This document shows, one piece after another, positions 56,765-61,886 of a stretch of DNA of 64,000 nucleotides. The stretch's first letter is position 1. Every line of letters starts with the position of its first letter. The position numbers and the translations under genes were made by a program. The DNA is taken from the NCBI GenBank assembly GCA_002786715.1, contig PCTW01000061.1, positions 124,001 through 188,000 on the forward strand, read 5' to 3'. The stretch comes from Bdellovibrio sp. CG22_combo_CG10-13_8_21_14_all_39_27. Its GTDB lineage: Bacteria; Bdellovibrionota; Bacteriovoracia; Bacteriovoracales; Bacteriovoracaceae. The notes under the pieces are model-generated. The model worked only from the letters and a program-made list of their open reading frames with translations. It did not search any database and was not told the DNA's origin.

Positions 56765-57121
56765 ATGGCCAAAATCTTTCATATTATTTCAAAAGCCGAT
56801 TGGGACTTGGCCCAGAAAAAGGGGATTTATGAACCTGAATCTCTTCAAAATGAAGGCTTTATTCACTTCTCAAAAACTGATCAAGTCAAAAATGTAGCTG
56901 ATCATCTCTATAAAGGAAGATCAGGAATGGTTTTGTTAAGAGTTGATGAGAGCAAGATTATGTCGAAGATTGTCTATGAAGTTCCTAAAGAAGCCCCTTA
57001 TTCCGAAATTAAATTCCCGCATATTTACGGCCCACTTCATTTAGATGCTGTTGAAGCTGCTATTGCTTTTCCTTGTTCAACAGACGGAACTTTTGCCTTA
57101 CCCGATAATCTCTTAAAGTAG
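56765..57121 (+). CDS. DUF952-family protein
   Basis: A 118-residue soluble protein of the DUF952 family (IFHIISKADWDLAQ, EGFIHFSKTDQVKNVADHLY, FPHIYGPLHLDAVEA). The fold is thought to be ADP-ribosyltransferase-like (ART-like), but activity is unproven. It starts after a terminator and is 13 bp upstream of mscS, probably the first gene of that operon. TGGGAGG precedes the ATG. Confidence 0.8.
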   Translation: MAKIFHIISKADWDLAQKKGIYEPESLQNEGFIHFSKTDQVKNVADHLYKGRSGMVLLRVDESKIMSKIVYEVPKEAPYSEIKFPHIYGPLHLDAVEAAIAFPCSTDGTFALPDNLLK

Positions 57122-57134
57122 AGGTATTTTTAAA

Positions 57135-57998
57135 ATGGAATCACTTACTTATCTGAAAGACATGTGGGGTTATTTAACCCATCCTTTGTTTGAAATTAAT
57201 GGTCATGCCTTTTCTTTCATGTCTATGGTAACGGCGATTGCTATTTTTGTGATTGGTCTCAAACTATCGAAAGTTGCAGAAAAAATTATCGGAAATTTTT
57301 TCTCTGATAAAGGTGTTGAGAAAGGTGTTCAAGCATCAGTCGAGAGGATAACTCGATATATCGTCATGATAACGGCCATGTTTATGGCCTTAGATACAGT
57401 TGGTGTTTCACTAAAGTCCTTGGCCGCTCTTGGTGCCGTCTTAATGGTTGGTATCGGATTTGGTTTACAAAATATTGCACAAAACTTTATTTCTGGATTG
57501 ATTATTTTATTAGAACGCCCGGTTCGAGTGGGGGATTTGATTAAAGTAGGCGATATTACCGGTAAAATTACCGATATTTCAGCTCGCTATACTGTCGTTC
57601 AAACACGTGATGACATATCGATCATCGTTCCTAACTCTCAACTCATTTCTGAACAAGTGACAAGCCAGACCTTCAACTCTGAGCAAATTCGCTTTGGGGT
57701 TGATGTTGGGGTTGCTTATGGCAGTGATGTTCGTTTGGTCGAAAAAATCCTGTTTGATGTAGCGATGATGCATAAAGATGTACTTAAAAATCCAGCTCCC
57801 AGTGTTTTCTTTACCAATTTCGGTGAAAGTAGTCTCGATTTTAGACTTTTGGTTTGGGTCGAAGATCTTTGGCACTATGAAAAAATTCTTTCCGACTTGA
57901 GATTTGCTATAGATCAAAGCTTTAGAGATCATAACGTAACGATTCCTTTTCCCCAAAGAGACCTGCATATTGTTTCTGGCTTAGAAAAGAGGTTTTAA
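57135..57998 (+). CDS. MscS-family mechanosensitive channel (first)
   Basis: A 287-residue small-conductance channel. Three TM helices (about 25-45, 70-88, 93-125) include the pore helix TM3 pattern GAVLMVGIGFGLQNIAQNFISGLIIL, followed by LLERPVRVGDLIKVGDITGKI and the beta and alpha/beta domains of MscS. It would relieve hypo-osmotic pressure. It is followed after 2 nt by the large ATPase and is one of two MscS proteins around it. Confidence 0.92.
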   Translation: MESLTYLKDMWGYLTHPLFEINGHAFSFMSMVTAIAIFVIGLKLSKVAEKIIGNFFSDKGVEKGVQASVERITRYIVMITAMFMALDTVGVSLKSLAALGAVLMVGIGFGLQNIAQNFISGLIILLERPVRVGDLIKVGDITGKITDISARYTVVQTRDDISIIVPNSQLISEQVTSQTFNSEQIRFGVDVGVAYGSDVRLVEKILFDVAMMHKDVLKNPAPSVFFTNFGESSLDFRLLVWVEDLWHYEKILSDLRFAIDQSFRDHNVTIPFPQRDLHIVSGLEKRF

Positions 57999-58000
57999 TC

Positions 58001-61000
58001 TTGAAAATTGTTTTTCTCTCTCTTTTCCTTTTGATATCTACCAATGTGTTTGCCATTGAATGCAATGACTCTAAGACTATCTCTCAAGCTTATTCAATTG
58101 AGAAAGAAAAGTGGTCTACTTCTATTAAGCTGCTTACAGGACTCTTAGAAGGTGTCCCAATTGATGGAGCCACTCCTTTAGAGTCCACTAAAAAGCTTCT
58201 CTTAACGAAAGAAAGTGAAATTAGTGATGTCAAAAAGAAACTTAATGAAGACCGTATTGATTTTATTTATCGCGATTGTCTAAAAGATTCAAAAATTGAG
58301 AGCATGATCGAATTAGATCGCCTTTACGATCTCCGTAAAGGTTTATTGATAAAGCTCCTCGATCTTCCTTTTGAAAAAAGGAACTCACTTGTTTCGCTAT
58401 ATCAGGTATCGACTTCTCAAGAAGCAGTAACTGTTCAAATTAAAACTGAACGGGATGAGGCGATAAAGGCGAAAGAGGAATCAGATAAGCAAATTGAAAA
58501 AGCTAAAATTGAAGCGCAAAAAGCCCAAGATGCTGTTCAGAAGGCCCTCGCATCTATTCGAGGAGAGATTGAAAGCTATAGAAGTGATCTTGCTTCAAAA
58601 GAAATTAAATGGACAACGGAACTTGAGTTAAAGTCCAATTGGTACCTCGAAAAAAGTAAAGAACTTGCCTCCGTAAACACATTGCTTTTAAGAGGCGGAA
58701 GTGATTCGGAGCTTTTAGATTCTTATCGGAAAGTTTTGGAACTTTGGCGATCGATGCTTTCAGATACATTTGGGCTTTTGGATCGTCACAAAGAATTTTT
58801 GCAGATCCCAGCTCCTAAAGCTCCGGGCCAACCGGTGGCACTCACAGCTGAGACGGAACAAACTTGGGCAGACATCACTAAAAGTTATGAAGAAGCTGAT
58901 ATCTTTTGGCAAAACTTGCGGTTAAAAACTCAGCAACGACTTGAAAGAGAACTCAGCCTGCATTACGGATTACTCCTAGAAACTAGTAAATTGCGATCAA
59001 TGCTCTTTGATGAAGGGAAAAGAAGAGGGCTGTTAACGATAGATCTTCTCTCAACCGATACATTGCTCGATTTTAAACGTGAATTTCAAATTATCCCTTA
59101 TCGATTTATAGCTACTTTTTCAGTGAAATGGATTGGAACCAAACAACTTTTAAGTGAAGGCCCAAAAGGCGTTGCCTCAGTGATCAAGGATATCTTCCTT
59201 CTCCTCGTGGTCATTCTCATTCCTTTATTAATGTGGAAAAGTACTAAAAAAGCCACCGAAGGTTTTGAAAAGCTTCGCTACAACTTACTTCGAAAGCAAT
59301 GGTCCAGCCACAAAGAAGGGCACTTTGTTTTCTATCTCCAAAAATTTGTTCCTTATATCCCTTGGCTTTTAGGCGTTGTTTTTCTTAAAATTGCTCAGTT
59401 TCTCATTATTCACACAGCGTTTCCAGAGCTTAGTAAAGTATTGGACTATGCTTATTACTTGATTTGGTACAACGTTTTTAAATTAATATTAACGAATTTG
59501 CTAAGTGCAGTTTCATTAAGTGCCAATTACAGTTCTAATATCGAATTAAAGAATAAGGTTAATAGAGTCTCCGGGATTATTGGGACCGTCCTTTTTTCTT
59601 CTTTAGCAACACTCGAATTATTCGAAGGTGTTGTAGGTCGTGGTCTCATTTATAATGCTATTCATACACTCCTCGTTTACGGTGGAATGGTCCTCTTATT
59701 TCAATTGGCCACTTCTTGGAAAGTTGAGATTGAAGTCTTTTTTAAACGTTTTTCTAGTCCGAAAACTTTGGAAGTGATTAATTTCTTGTTATCCAAGAAA
59801 TGGAGTCTCGTTCTCGTGAGTCTTCCTCTTTTGTTGTGGATCGTCTTTTTACACGTAGGCAATCAGTTCGTTCAATGGAGTTCTCGTTTTGATTTTTCAA
59901 AAAAGATTTCAGCTCGGCTTTTTAAGCGTCGCCTCGAAAGTTCAGAAGTAGAAGAAACGGGCGAGTCAATTCCTCCAGAGTATCGCAAGCTCTTTACCTA
60001 CGATCCGCTTGATGATGAAGAGTTTAAAATTGAACCGAGTCTTAGTTTAACTCCTGATCTCATAGAGCAAGTTCATTCGTGGAGTGCTTTTGTCTATGGT
60101 GAGGATGAAATAGAAGATGAGACTGAAGTTGAAGAACATTCAGTCGCTATTTATGGCCCAAAGGGAAGTGGTAAAAGTTCACTTTCTAATGATTTGGGCC
60201 ACAAGCTTAAGGATGTAGAGGTTATCACTTTAAAACTCAATCGCAGAATTTCTTCTCGTGAAAAATTTCTGCGTTTTGTTTCTCAAAGACTTAATGTTGA
60301 ACTTGAAAATGGCGCTCTTGATCTCAGAAGACTCGACTCCAAACTCAAAAAGACTGTTGTCATAATTGACGATGCTCATAACCTTTTCCTATCGCATGTG
60401 AATGGATTCGATGCCTATAAGACTTTTCTTGAGCTGATCAATGCACAAACTCGCAATATCTTCTGGATTGCTTTTTTTAATGATCATGCATGGAACTTCT
60501 TGAATAATGTTTTTGGCAGAAACCAATATTTTAGCTCAGTATTAAGCATGAAGAAGTGGAAGGAGTCAGACATTCAAAATATGATTATGAATCGTCATAA
60601 GAAAAGTGAATTTAAATTGTCATTTGATGAAATAATTAATGCTTCCCGCGGACAACTTGAAGTTAATCCCTATGCTCATGTTGAGACAAAATTCTTTAGA
60701 CTCTTATGGGAGCAATCTCGAGGTAATCCAAGAGTCGCTATTTATTTGTGGCTCTCATCGTTAAGTCGTAAGGATCATGTCACAATCAAAGTTGGTATTC
60801 CCGATGATCCAGAAACAAAGTATTTAACTTCATTAGCTGAAGTTTCATATTTTGTTTATGCAGAAATTGTTAAGCATGAAAATATGAATTCTAGAGAGTT
60901 GATCCAAACTTCCGGCTTAGAAGAAGGTATTGTTCGCAATGCACTCAAACAAGGCCTTGAAGGAAGTTTTCTCTATCGTTCCACTACGGGACGCTACCGC

Positions 61001-61072
61001 ATGACGACTCGATTTCAAAATGATCTCATTTCAATCCTTAAAACAAAGAATATGATTTATGCCATCGAGTGA
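58001..61072 (+). CDS. Large membrane protein with C-terminal AAA-type ATPase domain
   Basis: A 1023-residue protein. Signal peptide (KIVFLSLFLLISTNVFA), then a long charged helical periplasmic region with a coiled coil near 150-215 (RDEAIKAKEESDKQIEKAKI). At least six membrane helices lie at about 390-635. The cytosolic C-terminal part has Walker A GPKGSGKSS (719-727), Walker B VVIIDDAHN (786-794), a sensor-2-like RGNPRVAIYL and a winged-helix-like end (SRELIQTSGLEEGIVRNAL). The ATPase resembles ORC/Cdc6/ExeA-like P-loop proteins. No channel pore motif of its own. The TTG start has AGAGG upstream; sandwiched between two mscS genes. Confidence 0.8.
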   Translation: MKIVFLSLFLLISTNVFAIECNDSKTISQAYSIEKEKWSTSIKLLTGLLEGVPIDGATPLESTKKLLLTKESEISDVKKKLNEDRIDFIYRDCLKDSKIESMIELDRLYDLRKGLLIKLLDLPFEKRNSLVSLYQVSTSQEAVTVQIKTERDEAIKAKEESDKQIEKAKIEAQKAQDAVQKALASIRGEIESYRSDLASKEIKWTTELELKSNWYLEKSKELASVNTLLLRGGSDSELLDSYRKVLELWRSMLSDTFGLLDRHKEFLQIPAPKAPGQPVALTAETEQTWADITKSYEEADIFWQNLRLKTQQRLERELSLHYGLLLETSKLRSMLFDEGKRRGLLTIDLLSTDTLLDFKREFQIIPYRFIATFSVKWIGTKQLLSEGPKGVASVIKDIFLLLVVILIPLLMWKSTKKATEGFEKLRYNLLRKQWSSHKEGHFVFYLQKFVPYIPWLLGVVFLKIAQFLIIHTAFPELSKVLDYAYYLIWYNVFKLILTNLLSAVSLSANYSSNIELKNKVNRVSGIIGTVLFSSLATLELFEGVVGRGLIYNAIHTLLVYGGMVLLFQLATSWKVEIEVFFKRFSSPKTLEVINFLLSKKWSLVLVSLPLLLWIVFLHVGNQFVQWSSRFDFSKKISARLFKRRLESSEVEETGESIPPEYRKLFTYDPLDDEEFKIEPSLSLTPDLIEQVHSWSAFVYGEDEIEDETEVEEHSVAIYGPKGSGKSSLSNDLGHKLKDVEVITLKLNRRISSREKFLRFVSQRLNVELENGALDLRRLDSKLKKTVVIIDDAHNLFLSHVNGFDAYKTFLELINAQTRNIFWIAFFNDHAWNFLNNVFGRNQYFSSVLSMKKWKESDIQNMIMNRHKKSEFKLSFDEIINASRGQLEVNPYAHVETKFFRLLWEQSRGNPRVAIYLWLSSLSRKDHVTIKVGIPDDPETKYLTSLAEVSYFVYAEIVKHENMNSRELIQTSGLEEGIVRNALKQGLEGSFLYRSTTGRYRMTTRFQNDLISILKTKNMIYAIE

Positions 61073-61886
61073 TATCAGCGCCCTAATTGAAGCGGGCTCT
61101 TTATTTAAGTTTAGAAATATATCCTATCTCATCATAGGTATGGTGACTCTTGTTTGGAGTGTGCGCTTTATTCAAGATAGAGCAAAGTCTCTTCATGAGA
61201 AATTTCCAGCACGCAGACTGCTCATTCTTCAAATTGTAACGATTTTCACTTTTTTCATTTATATTTTTGGAACAATCTTTTTGGTGATGAATGCCCTTCG
61301 TCCTCCAAGAGAACTTTTGATTGCACTGGGTGGATCAGCTGCGGTAGCCATTGGTTTTGCAACTAAAGATATTTTTGCTTCACTTGTGGCAGGCCTTATT
61401 TTGCTTTTTGATCGGCCTTTTCAAGTGGGTGATCGTGTAAAATATGGCGAAATCTATGGAGAAATTAATAGCATTGGACTTCGTGCAGTTCGCTTAGTTA
61501 CATTAGACGATTCAGTGGTAACTATTCCGAATCTCAAATTTATTACCGATGCCGTTTCTTCAGGAAATGCTGGGGCCCTCGATATGATGATTGAAATTCC
61601 TTTTTATATCTCTCTCGATGAAGATGTGAAAAAGGTTAGAGATCTTCTCTACGAGATTGTAGTGACCTCGCGTTTTGTTTATTTAAAAAAGCCTGTAAGT
61701 ATTGTGGTTAAGGAAGTCGAAATTGCCGGCCGTCTGGCCTACCGTTTAACAATCAAAGCCTATGTATTAGATGTGCGTTACGAGAAATCTTTTGAAACAG
61801 ATGTAACCATCCGTGCCAGCCGTTATTTCCAAGAGCTGGCCGTTCGTCGACCTCTTTTATTTGTAGCAAGCCCGACATCGAAGTGA
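61059..61886 (+). CDS. MscS-family mechanosensitive channel (second)
   Basis: A 275-residue channel protein. Two N-terminal TM helices (about 20-35, 52-75) and a pore helix (ALGGSAAVAIGFATKDIFASLVAGLILLF) are followed by DRPFQVGDRVKYGEIYGEI and an MscS beta domain (VTIPNLKFITDAV). It is only distantly related to the first MscS. The ATG lies within the end of the ATPase gene (14-bp overlap), so expression is coupled. Confidence 0.9.
   Translation: MPSSDISALIEAGSLFKFRNISYLIIGMVTLVWSVRFIQDRAKSLHEKFPARRLLILQIVTIFTFFIYIFGTIFLVMNALRPPRELLIALGGSAAVAIGFATKDIFASLVAGLILLFDRPFQVGDRVKYGEIYGEINSIGLRAVRLVTLDDSVVTIPNLKFITDAVSSGNAGALDMMIEIPFYISLDEDVKKVRDLLYEIVVTSRFVYLKKPVSIVVKEVEIAGRLAYRLTIKAYVLDVRYEKSFETDVTIRASRYFQELAVRRPLLFVASPTSK

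Follow-up and report, generated by a model that had tools for sequence, protein, structure and literature searches.

The 64,000-nucleotide stretch of DNA that was analyzed, termed the window here, includes three consecutive genes that specify a small mechanosensitive-type channel (MscS-A), a large membrane ATPase and a second channel (MscS-B). The features of the locus and of the ATPase are as follows.

56765–57121, plus strand: DUF952 protein (PF06108, 5.8e-26), 13 nt upstream of MscS-A; neighbor outside the conserved unit.
57135–57998, plus strand: MscS-A, 287 aa, an ordinary MscS/MscK-like channel (Pfam MscS beta-domain, 1.2e-19); neighbor outside the conserved unit.
58001–61072, plus strand: membrane AAA+ ATPase, 1023 aa with a TTG start (P0001), partner gene of the conserved pair (Pfam, AlphaFold2, Foldseek).
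58001–58054, plus strand: predicted signal peptide of the ATPase, aa 1–18 (...NVFA/IEC cleavage), from the sequence and the signal-like N-termini across homologues.
58055–59170, plus strand: probable periplasmic helical/coiled-coil domain, aa 19–390 (AlphaFold2 secondary structure; column occupancy 0.55–0.9).
59171–59881, plus strand: membrane region with six predicted hydrophobic helices near aa 404, 459, 487, 536, 558 and 614 (AlphaFold2, hydrophobicity).
60050–60805, plus strand: AAA+ core, aa 684–935, Orc1/Cdc6-like (Pfam, Foldseek).
60155–60178, plus strand: Walker A motif, GPKGSGKS, aa 719–726.
60353–60373, plus strand: Walker B motif, aa 785–791, with Asp-790 and with Asp-791 at the catalytic position.
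60722–60733, plus strand: GNPR motif, aa 908–911, sensor-2-like and STAND GxP-like.
60839–61045, plus strand: predicted C-terminal winged-helix domain, aa 947–1015 (AlphaFold2 secondary structure; family conservation).
61059–61072, plus strand: 14-nt overlap of the ATPase and MscS-B genes (open reading frame coordinates).
61059–61886, plus strand: MscS-B, 275 aa, the dedicated MscS-family channel (P0003; PF00924 5e-19, AlphaFold2, Foldseek, profile score).

The MscS-A and ATPase genes are separated by 2 nt and the ATPase and MscS-B genes share 14 nt, which reproduces the three-gene layout of an earlier sequence-only reading of this DNA. The Walker motifs noted in that reading also are present, at the residues listed above. 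The two channels had been described as unrelated; however, a phmmer comparison produced ~70 bits, showing that MscS-A and MscS-B are related proteins of different subfamilies.

The ATPase matches the Pfam families AAA_22 (3.9e-8, 34.1 bits against a cut-off of 27) and AAA (5.5e-5, 24.1 bits against a cut-off of 21.2) across residues 713–830. Modeling with AlphaFold2 using 58 homologues (mean pLDDT 87, pTM 0.69) predicted a signal peptide, periplasmic helices to residue ~385, six membrane-type helices, an AAA+ core and a C-terminal winged helix, consistent with the periplasmic coiled coil and approximately six transmembrane helices proposed from the sequence. The best Foldseek matches of the model were Cdc6/Orc1 proteins (1fnn, E 2.8e-7; 2qby, 3.4e-6) and the archaeal ATPase 2qen. 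As modeled, the core is an Orc1/Cdc6-like AAA+ domain with a winged helix. A comparison with the STAND and ORC/Cdc6 families had been suggested: Foldseek matched the latter, and matches to nSTAND and AAA_16 Pfam profiles were weak, with scores below the STAND cut-offs (nSTAND6, 16.9 bits against 27.7). Hydrophobicity-based topology yielded an even helix count of six, and no odd number of crossings was obtained. As a cleaved signal peptide followed by six full crossings would place the ATPase domain outside, one of the six predicted helices probably does not cross the membrane. In the N-terminal region, Cys-21 and Cys-93 are conserved together in all 33 members that have the periplasmic domain, as for a periplasmic disulfide bond, and short homologues (~620–780 aa) are without most of this part of the protein.

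The nucleotide site was compared across 58 members of the family. Within Walker A, Gly-719, Gly-722 and Gly-724 are invariant and Lys-725 is retained in 56 of the proteins. The P-loops of homologues, whose degeneracy had been raised earlier as a possible objection, thus are mostly intact; the few altered examples are in loci L105, L123 and L124 and in an archaeal form described below. The Walker B residue Asp-790 is present in 55 of 58 members. The adjacent position is occupied by the catalytic glutamate that characterizes AAA+ proteins in only 29 members, the remainder possessing aspartate (18, including the window protein), asparagine (10) or glutamine (1). The GNPR motif is conserved to differing extents (Gly in 58, Asn in 57, Pro in 57 and Arg in 40 of 58). 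As the P-loop is maintained but the catalytic acid varies, a nucleotide switch fits the family better than a motor. Judged by sequence, the variable acid, the GNP[R] motif and the winged helix collectively resemble slow switch ATPases such as Orc1/Cdc6 and STAND proteins more than motors. It had been proposed that ATP hydrolysis controls gating: the dedicated ATPase in this proposal stands, whereas the role of hydrolysis is weakened by the replacement of the catalytic glutamate in half of the family and by the altered archaeal P-loop.

The variation at position 791 and the altered P-loops also would suit a protein that binds nucleotide solely for structural purposes, without hydrolysis, and that acts as a scaffold or sensor tethering the periplasm or peptidoglycan to the channel. 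The long periplasmic helices are in keeping with such a tether. However, Walker A and the Walker B aspartate otherwise are strongly constrained over deep divergence, and the AAA core is retained where the periplasmic part is short or missing, as in several lineages, or missing altogether, as in the archaeon. A non-hydrolyzing scaffold is judged distinctly unlikely.

The MscS beta-domain (PF00924) was identified in all 56 MscS-B members examined, and PF21082 was detected by sequence in only eight of these. The AlphaFold2 model of MscS-B (pLDDT 84) comprises a three-helix membrane part with a Gly/Ala-rich pore helix and an alpha/beta cytosolic domain. Foldseek matched this model to MscS (2.5e-15) and to MscK (query TM-score 0.69). 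Relative conservation was higher in MscS-B than in ordinary MscS-A channels of the same family in both the beta-domain (0.785 vs. 0.665) and the C-domain (0.554 vs. 0.494), but lower in the TM3 pore helix (0.728 vs. 0.834). The pattern is as expected for a cytosolic surface that contacts a partner, although the difference is modest. A weak beta-domain match (22 bits) within a 5529-residue open frame elsewhere in the source genome (L004; G000:C72:90157–90315) is probably due to chance.

The association of the ATPase with MscS-B was assessed in related genomes. In searches in which full-length genuine members of the ATPase family scored >100 bits and background AAA proteins <47 bits, the ATPase was found in 38 of 95 genomes of the source organism's own family, and profile searches extended the set over the phylum. 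Flanks of up to 7 kb were collected for 69 ATPase loci, 64 of which have the 3′ end of the gene inside the contig. MscS-B is the next gene on the same strand in all 64 of these Bdellovibrionota loci, with two of the MscS-B copies themselves cut by the end of the contig. Conversely, an MscS-B profile (A4) that awarded 412 bits to the window protein and ≤154 bits to ordinary MscS proteins was searched against 358 genomes. All 65 places that scored >240 bits adjoin the ATPase, other than where a contig breaks off (G236, where the contig ends, and G091, in which the locus is split over two contigs). The best MscS proteins below the MscS-B cluster scored 154 and 148 bits (L277 and L278) and have no such ATPase nearby, as is the case also for the MscK-like channels in L279 and L280. 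The distance between the paired genes is −11 nt in 29 loci, −8 nt in 17 and −14 nt in three, with six others. These genomes encode ~5 MscS proteins each, yet the same subfamily adjoins the ATPase in every locus; as chance adjacency would amount to a fraction of a percent per genome, the linkage is far above that expected at random. The sequence-only reading had proposed that the ATPase is dedicated to MscS channels and had allowed that it might prove to occur mostly without mscS neighbors. The outcome was the opposite, one MscS, namely MscS-B, being always adjacent in both search directions. The conserved unit is two genes, the ATPase and the downstream MscS-B, and is both smaller and far more widespread than the three-gene operon.

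Additional observations relate to the gene pair and its detection. The ATPase terminates in KNFIYG (alignment A1; window 61040–61072), and the conserved YG residues share bases with the MscS-B start, ATGGA, in 11-nt overlaps. Conservation of these residues may reflect the gene overlap rather than the protein. The ATPase frame is interrupted or split in L118, L258 and L271 with MscS-B remaining open, which denotes either sequencing error or decay. A single-sequence pattern scan of genome contigs recovered nothing, but an alignment-based scan of named genomes did detect members.

MscS-A behaves differently from MscS-B. In related genomes, some of which have no ATPase, orthologues of MscS-A (>250 bits) are located elsewhere. 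The gene adjoins the pair upstream only in the source genome, and the single other genome with a relative beside the pair (L067) has it immediately downstream. MscS-A is an incidental neighbor, and the earlier picture of two flanking MscS channels in a conserved three-gene order holds for this genome only; a three-gene unit was rejected on the basis of gene neighborhoods. Second MscS genes of varying subfamily adjoin the pair in several independent lineages, namely in L067, L100, L132, L123, L237–L244, L271 and L273, and may still matter, since a rough estimate places their frequency above chance. Together with the tight spacing in the source genome, these extra channels would favor a three-part complex in which both MscS channels and the ATPase act together. 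This arrangement nevertheless is extremely improbable: the MscS-A orthologues are unlinked and occur also where the ATPase is absent, the extra MscS proteins differ in subfamily and position, and most loci have none.

Other genes recur beside the pair, among them RimK/AstE, sensor kinase and pyrophosphatase genes. A RimK ATP-grasp ligase is encoded nearby in Bdellovibrionota (L089, L091–L094, L097, L098, L100 and L109) and in Gammaproteobacteria (L238, L240 and L241), and genes for an AstE/AspA-type deacylase and an ATP-dependent zinc protease are found in those Bdellovibrionota loci only. The RimK/AstE-type genes are directly upstream on the same strand in several loci. A functional link of the RimK-type neighbors with the pair, in two phyla, is possible. 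Histidine kinase gene clusters are located near the pair in L087, L238–L242, L244 and L246, and the kinase in L087 has an ethylene-receptor-like N-terminal domain (PF25487).

The pair also is distributed beyond Bdellovibrionota. A scan of named genomes identified the ATPase in Gammaproteobacteria, Gallionella, Gallionellaceae, a Spirochaetes metagenome-assembled genome (MAG) and two Hahella, with MscS-B after the ATPase in nine of nine loci from groups outside the phylum. In the order of Hahella, MscS-B is present in 35 of 295 genomes and the ATPase is directly upstream in all 35; a diverged subset in this order has ATPase scores of only 96–153 bits, yet MscS-B still is paired. The pair is rare in the order of Gallionella (3 of 300 genomes). 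Plasmid records add Alphaproteobacteria, comprising Novosphingobium with an “AAA family ATPase” plus MscS, and Caulobacter with an “ATP-binding protein,” MscS and a second MscS. Overall, about a third of the genomes sampled from one Bdellovibrionota family have the pair, as do approximately an eighth of those from one gammaproteobacterial order. For the source organism, class-level and order-level searches covered identical genomes, as that class is represented by a single family.

Trees of the ATPase and MscS-B were compared for 65 pairs. Patristic distances were strongly correlated (r = 0.88; permutation maximum 0.16), and the ATPase branches that conflict with the MscS tree numbered 0 of 34 at SH-aLRT ≥95 and 3 of 40 at ≥90. 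Members from outside Bdellovibrionota nest at matching places in both trees, with Gallionellaceae inside a Bdellovibrionales group and the Spirochaetes MAG beside L068, as expected if both genes moved together. The ATPase and MscS-B are co-inherited across phyla. The patchy distribution, covering about a third of the family, and the plasmid-borne copies might be viewed as signs of a STAND-like defense or suicide module in which the ATPase senses infection and opens MscS-B so that the cell leaks, and the GxP-like GNP motif, Asp-Asp Walker B and winged helix are STAND-like traits. However, PADLOC models produced no relevant match for the pair or for ten sampled neighbors, the recurrent neighbors are housekeeping or signaling genes, the co-inheritance is largely congruent and the ATPase has no C-terminal repeat sensor. 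A defensive role is judged highly improbable.

The most reduced version of the pair was found on a plasmid of the haloarchaeon Salinirubellus sp. SYNS196, where the gene for a 331-aa “hypothetical” protein overlaps an MscS gene by 4 nt. The family signature is recognizable in this protein in the region of Walker B and sensor 1, with a score of 37 bits (E 2e-10 for 4000 genes), compared to ≤7.8 bits for shuffled or reversed decoys and 13.4 bits for the best unrelated natural protein. The protein is a soluble AAA-type core that lacks both membrane helices and a periplasmic domain, and its P-loop is altered (GDPFSGRES). With only the core and MscS in the archaeal pair, association with the channel seems to reside in the AAA-type core, and the membrane and periplasmic portions look like additions to it. 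On a plasmid of Halomonas sp. PA16-9 (L276:3226–4738), a 206-aa open reading frame with an ATPase-core match of 22 bits precedes a diverged MscS gene and is tentatively another soluble-core pair, perhaps frameshifted.

The obligate pairing in both directions, the co-inheritance, the folds, the P-loop conservation and the minimal archaeal core with MscS suggest that opening of MscS-B is set by the nucleotide state of an AAA+ regulatory subunit dedicated to this channel. The contact, the switch action and the signal are inferred, and we give the reading as a whole an even chance of being correct. In this scheme, MscS-B would form a channel with the MscS fold, presumably a heptamer, and the ATPase would be a regulatory subunit anchored in the membrane through its own helices and, in many lineages, bearing a helical sensor in the periplasm. 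The cytosolic ATPase core would contact the channel, most likely at the cytosolic cage. The nucleotide state (bound or free, turnover being slow or nil in many members) would toggle the channel between an easy-to-open and a locked form, and opening thereby would respond to cellular energy state or to a signal in the periplasm. Alternatively, tension alone could gate the channel with the ATPase serving assembly. More generally, the AAA+ protein may be an assembly, remodeling or quality-control chaperone of MscS-B that does not set gating. AAA+ proteins often remodel complexes, and the overlapping genes would yield partner and chaperone in fixed proportion. Nevertheless, a chaperone is judged unlikely: the lack of the catalytic glutamate in half of the family is odd for a motor, the ordinary MscS proteins of the same genomes have no such partner, and large periplasmic domains are not expected. 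A dedicated AAA+ regulatory subunit is the best-supported reading, ranking above a chaperone, a non-hydrolyzing scaffold and a defense module. More tentatively, and with slightly less than even confidence, the pair may represent a widespread bacterial and archaeal class of “ATP-switched” mechanosensitive channel in which the nucleotide state of an Orc1/Cdc6-like AAA+ subunit gates an MscS pore and lineages have added interchangeable periplasmic sensors.

If the pair forms a complex, energy state or a signal would control when a mechanosensitive pore opens, and a fold of the AAA+ type akin to that of replication initiators would gain a new job at the membrane. The Bdellovibrionota family that harbors the pair belongs to a group that includes predatory bacteria. 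Direct testing is possible, as the pair is present in cultured Hahella ganghwensis, Novosphingobium pentaromativorans and Bacteriovorax sp.

MscS channels are textbook tension valves; to our knowledge, known members of the family act without an ATPase partner, and we know of none with a dedicated ATPase. A full-text literature search of partial coverage found no description of such an MscS, which constitutes absence of evidence only. One study notes enrichment of mscS (K03442) in certain groups of marine Bdellovibrionota and mentions no ATPase (PMC8067016). The component superfamilies are known and the ATPase–MscS pairing appears to be new. MscS-B shares the beta-domain, pore helix and overall fold of the MscS family (E. 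coli MscS and YnaI; 3udc/3t9n), but is a sharply separated subfamily that always is paired with the ATPase. As in MscK/MscM, a channel is combined with a large periplasmic helical domain and extra membrane helices; here, in contrast, the extra parts form a separate protein with an AAA+ core, and N-terminal homology is not detectable. The idea of a split MscK, with the N-terminal part of the ATPase homologous to MscK/MscM, was ruled out by hhalign (probability 0.6%) and Pfam. The AAA+ core followed by a winged helix has its best fold match in the Orc1/Cdc6 initiators; unlike these, the ATPase is membrane-anchored and paired with a channel. The Asp-Asp Walker B (18 of 58 members, including the window protein), the GxP-like motif (GNP in 57–58 of 58) and the winged helix are shared with STAND NTPases and archaeal MNS-type ATPases (2qen), but the ATPase ends at the winged helix, with neither a C-terminal repeat (TPR, WD40 or LRR) nor a fused effector. 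In KATP channels (Kir6 + SUR), a separate nucleotide-binding subunit sets channel opening; the parallel with the ATPase and MscS-B pair is an analogy of working principle between unrelated protein families.
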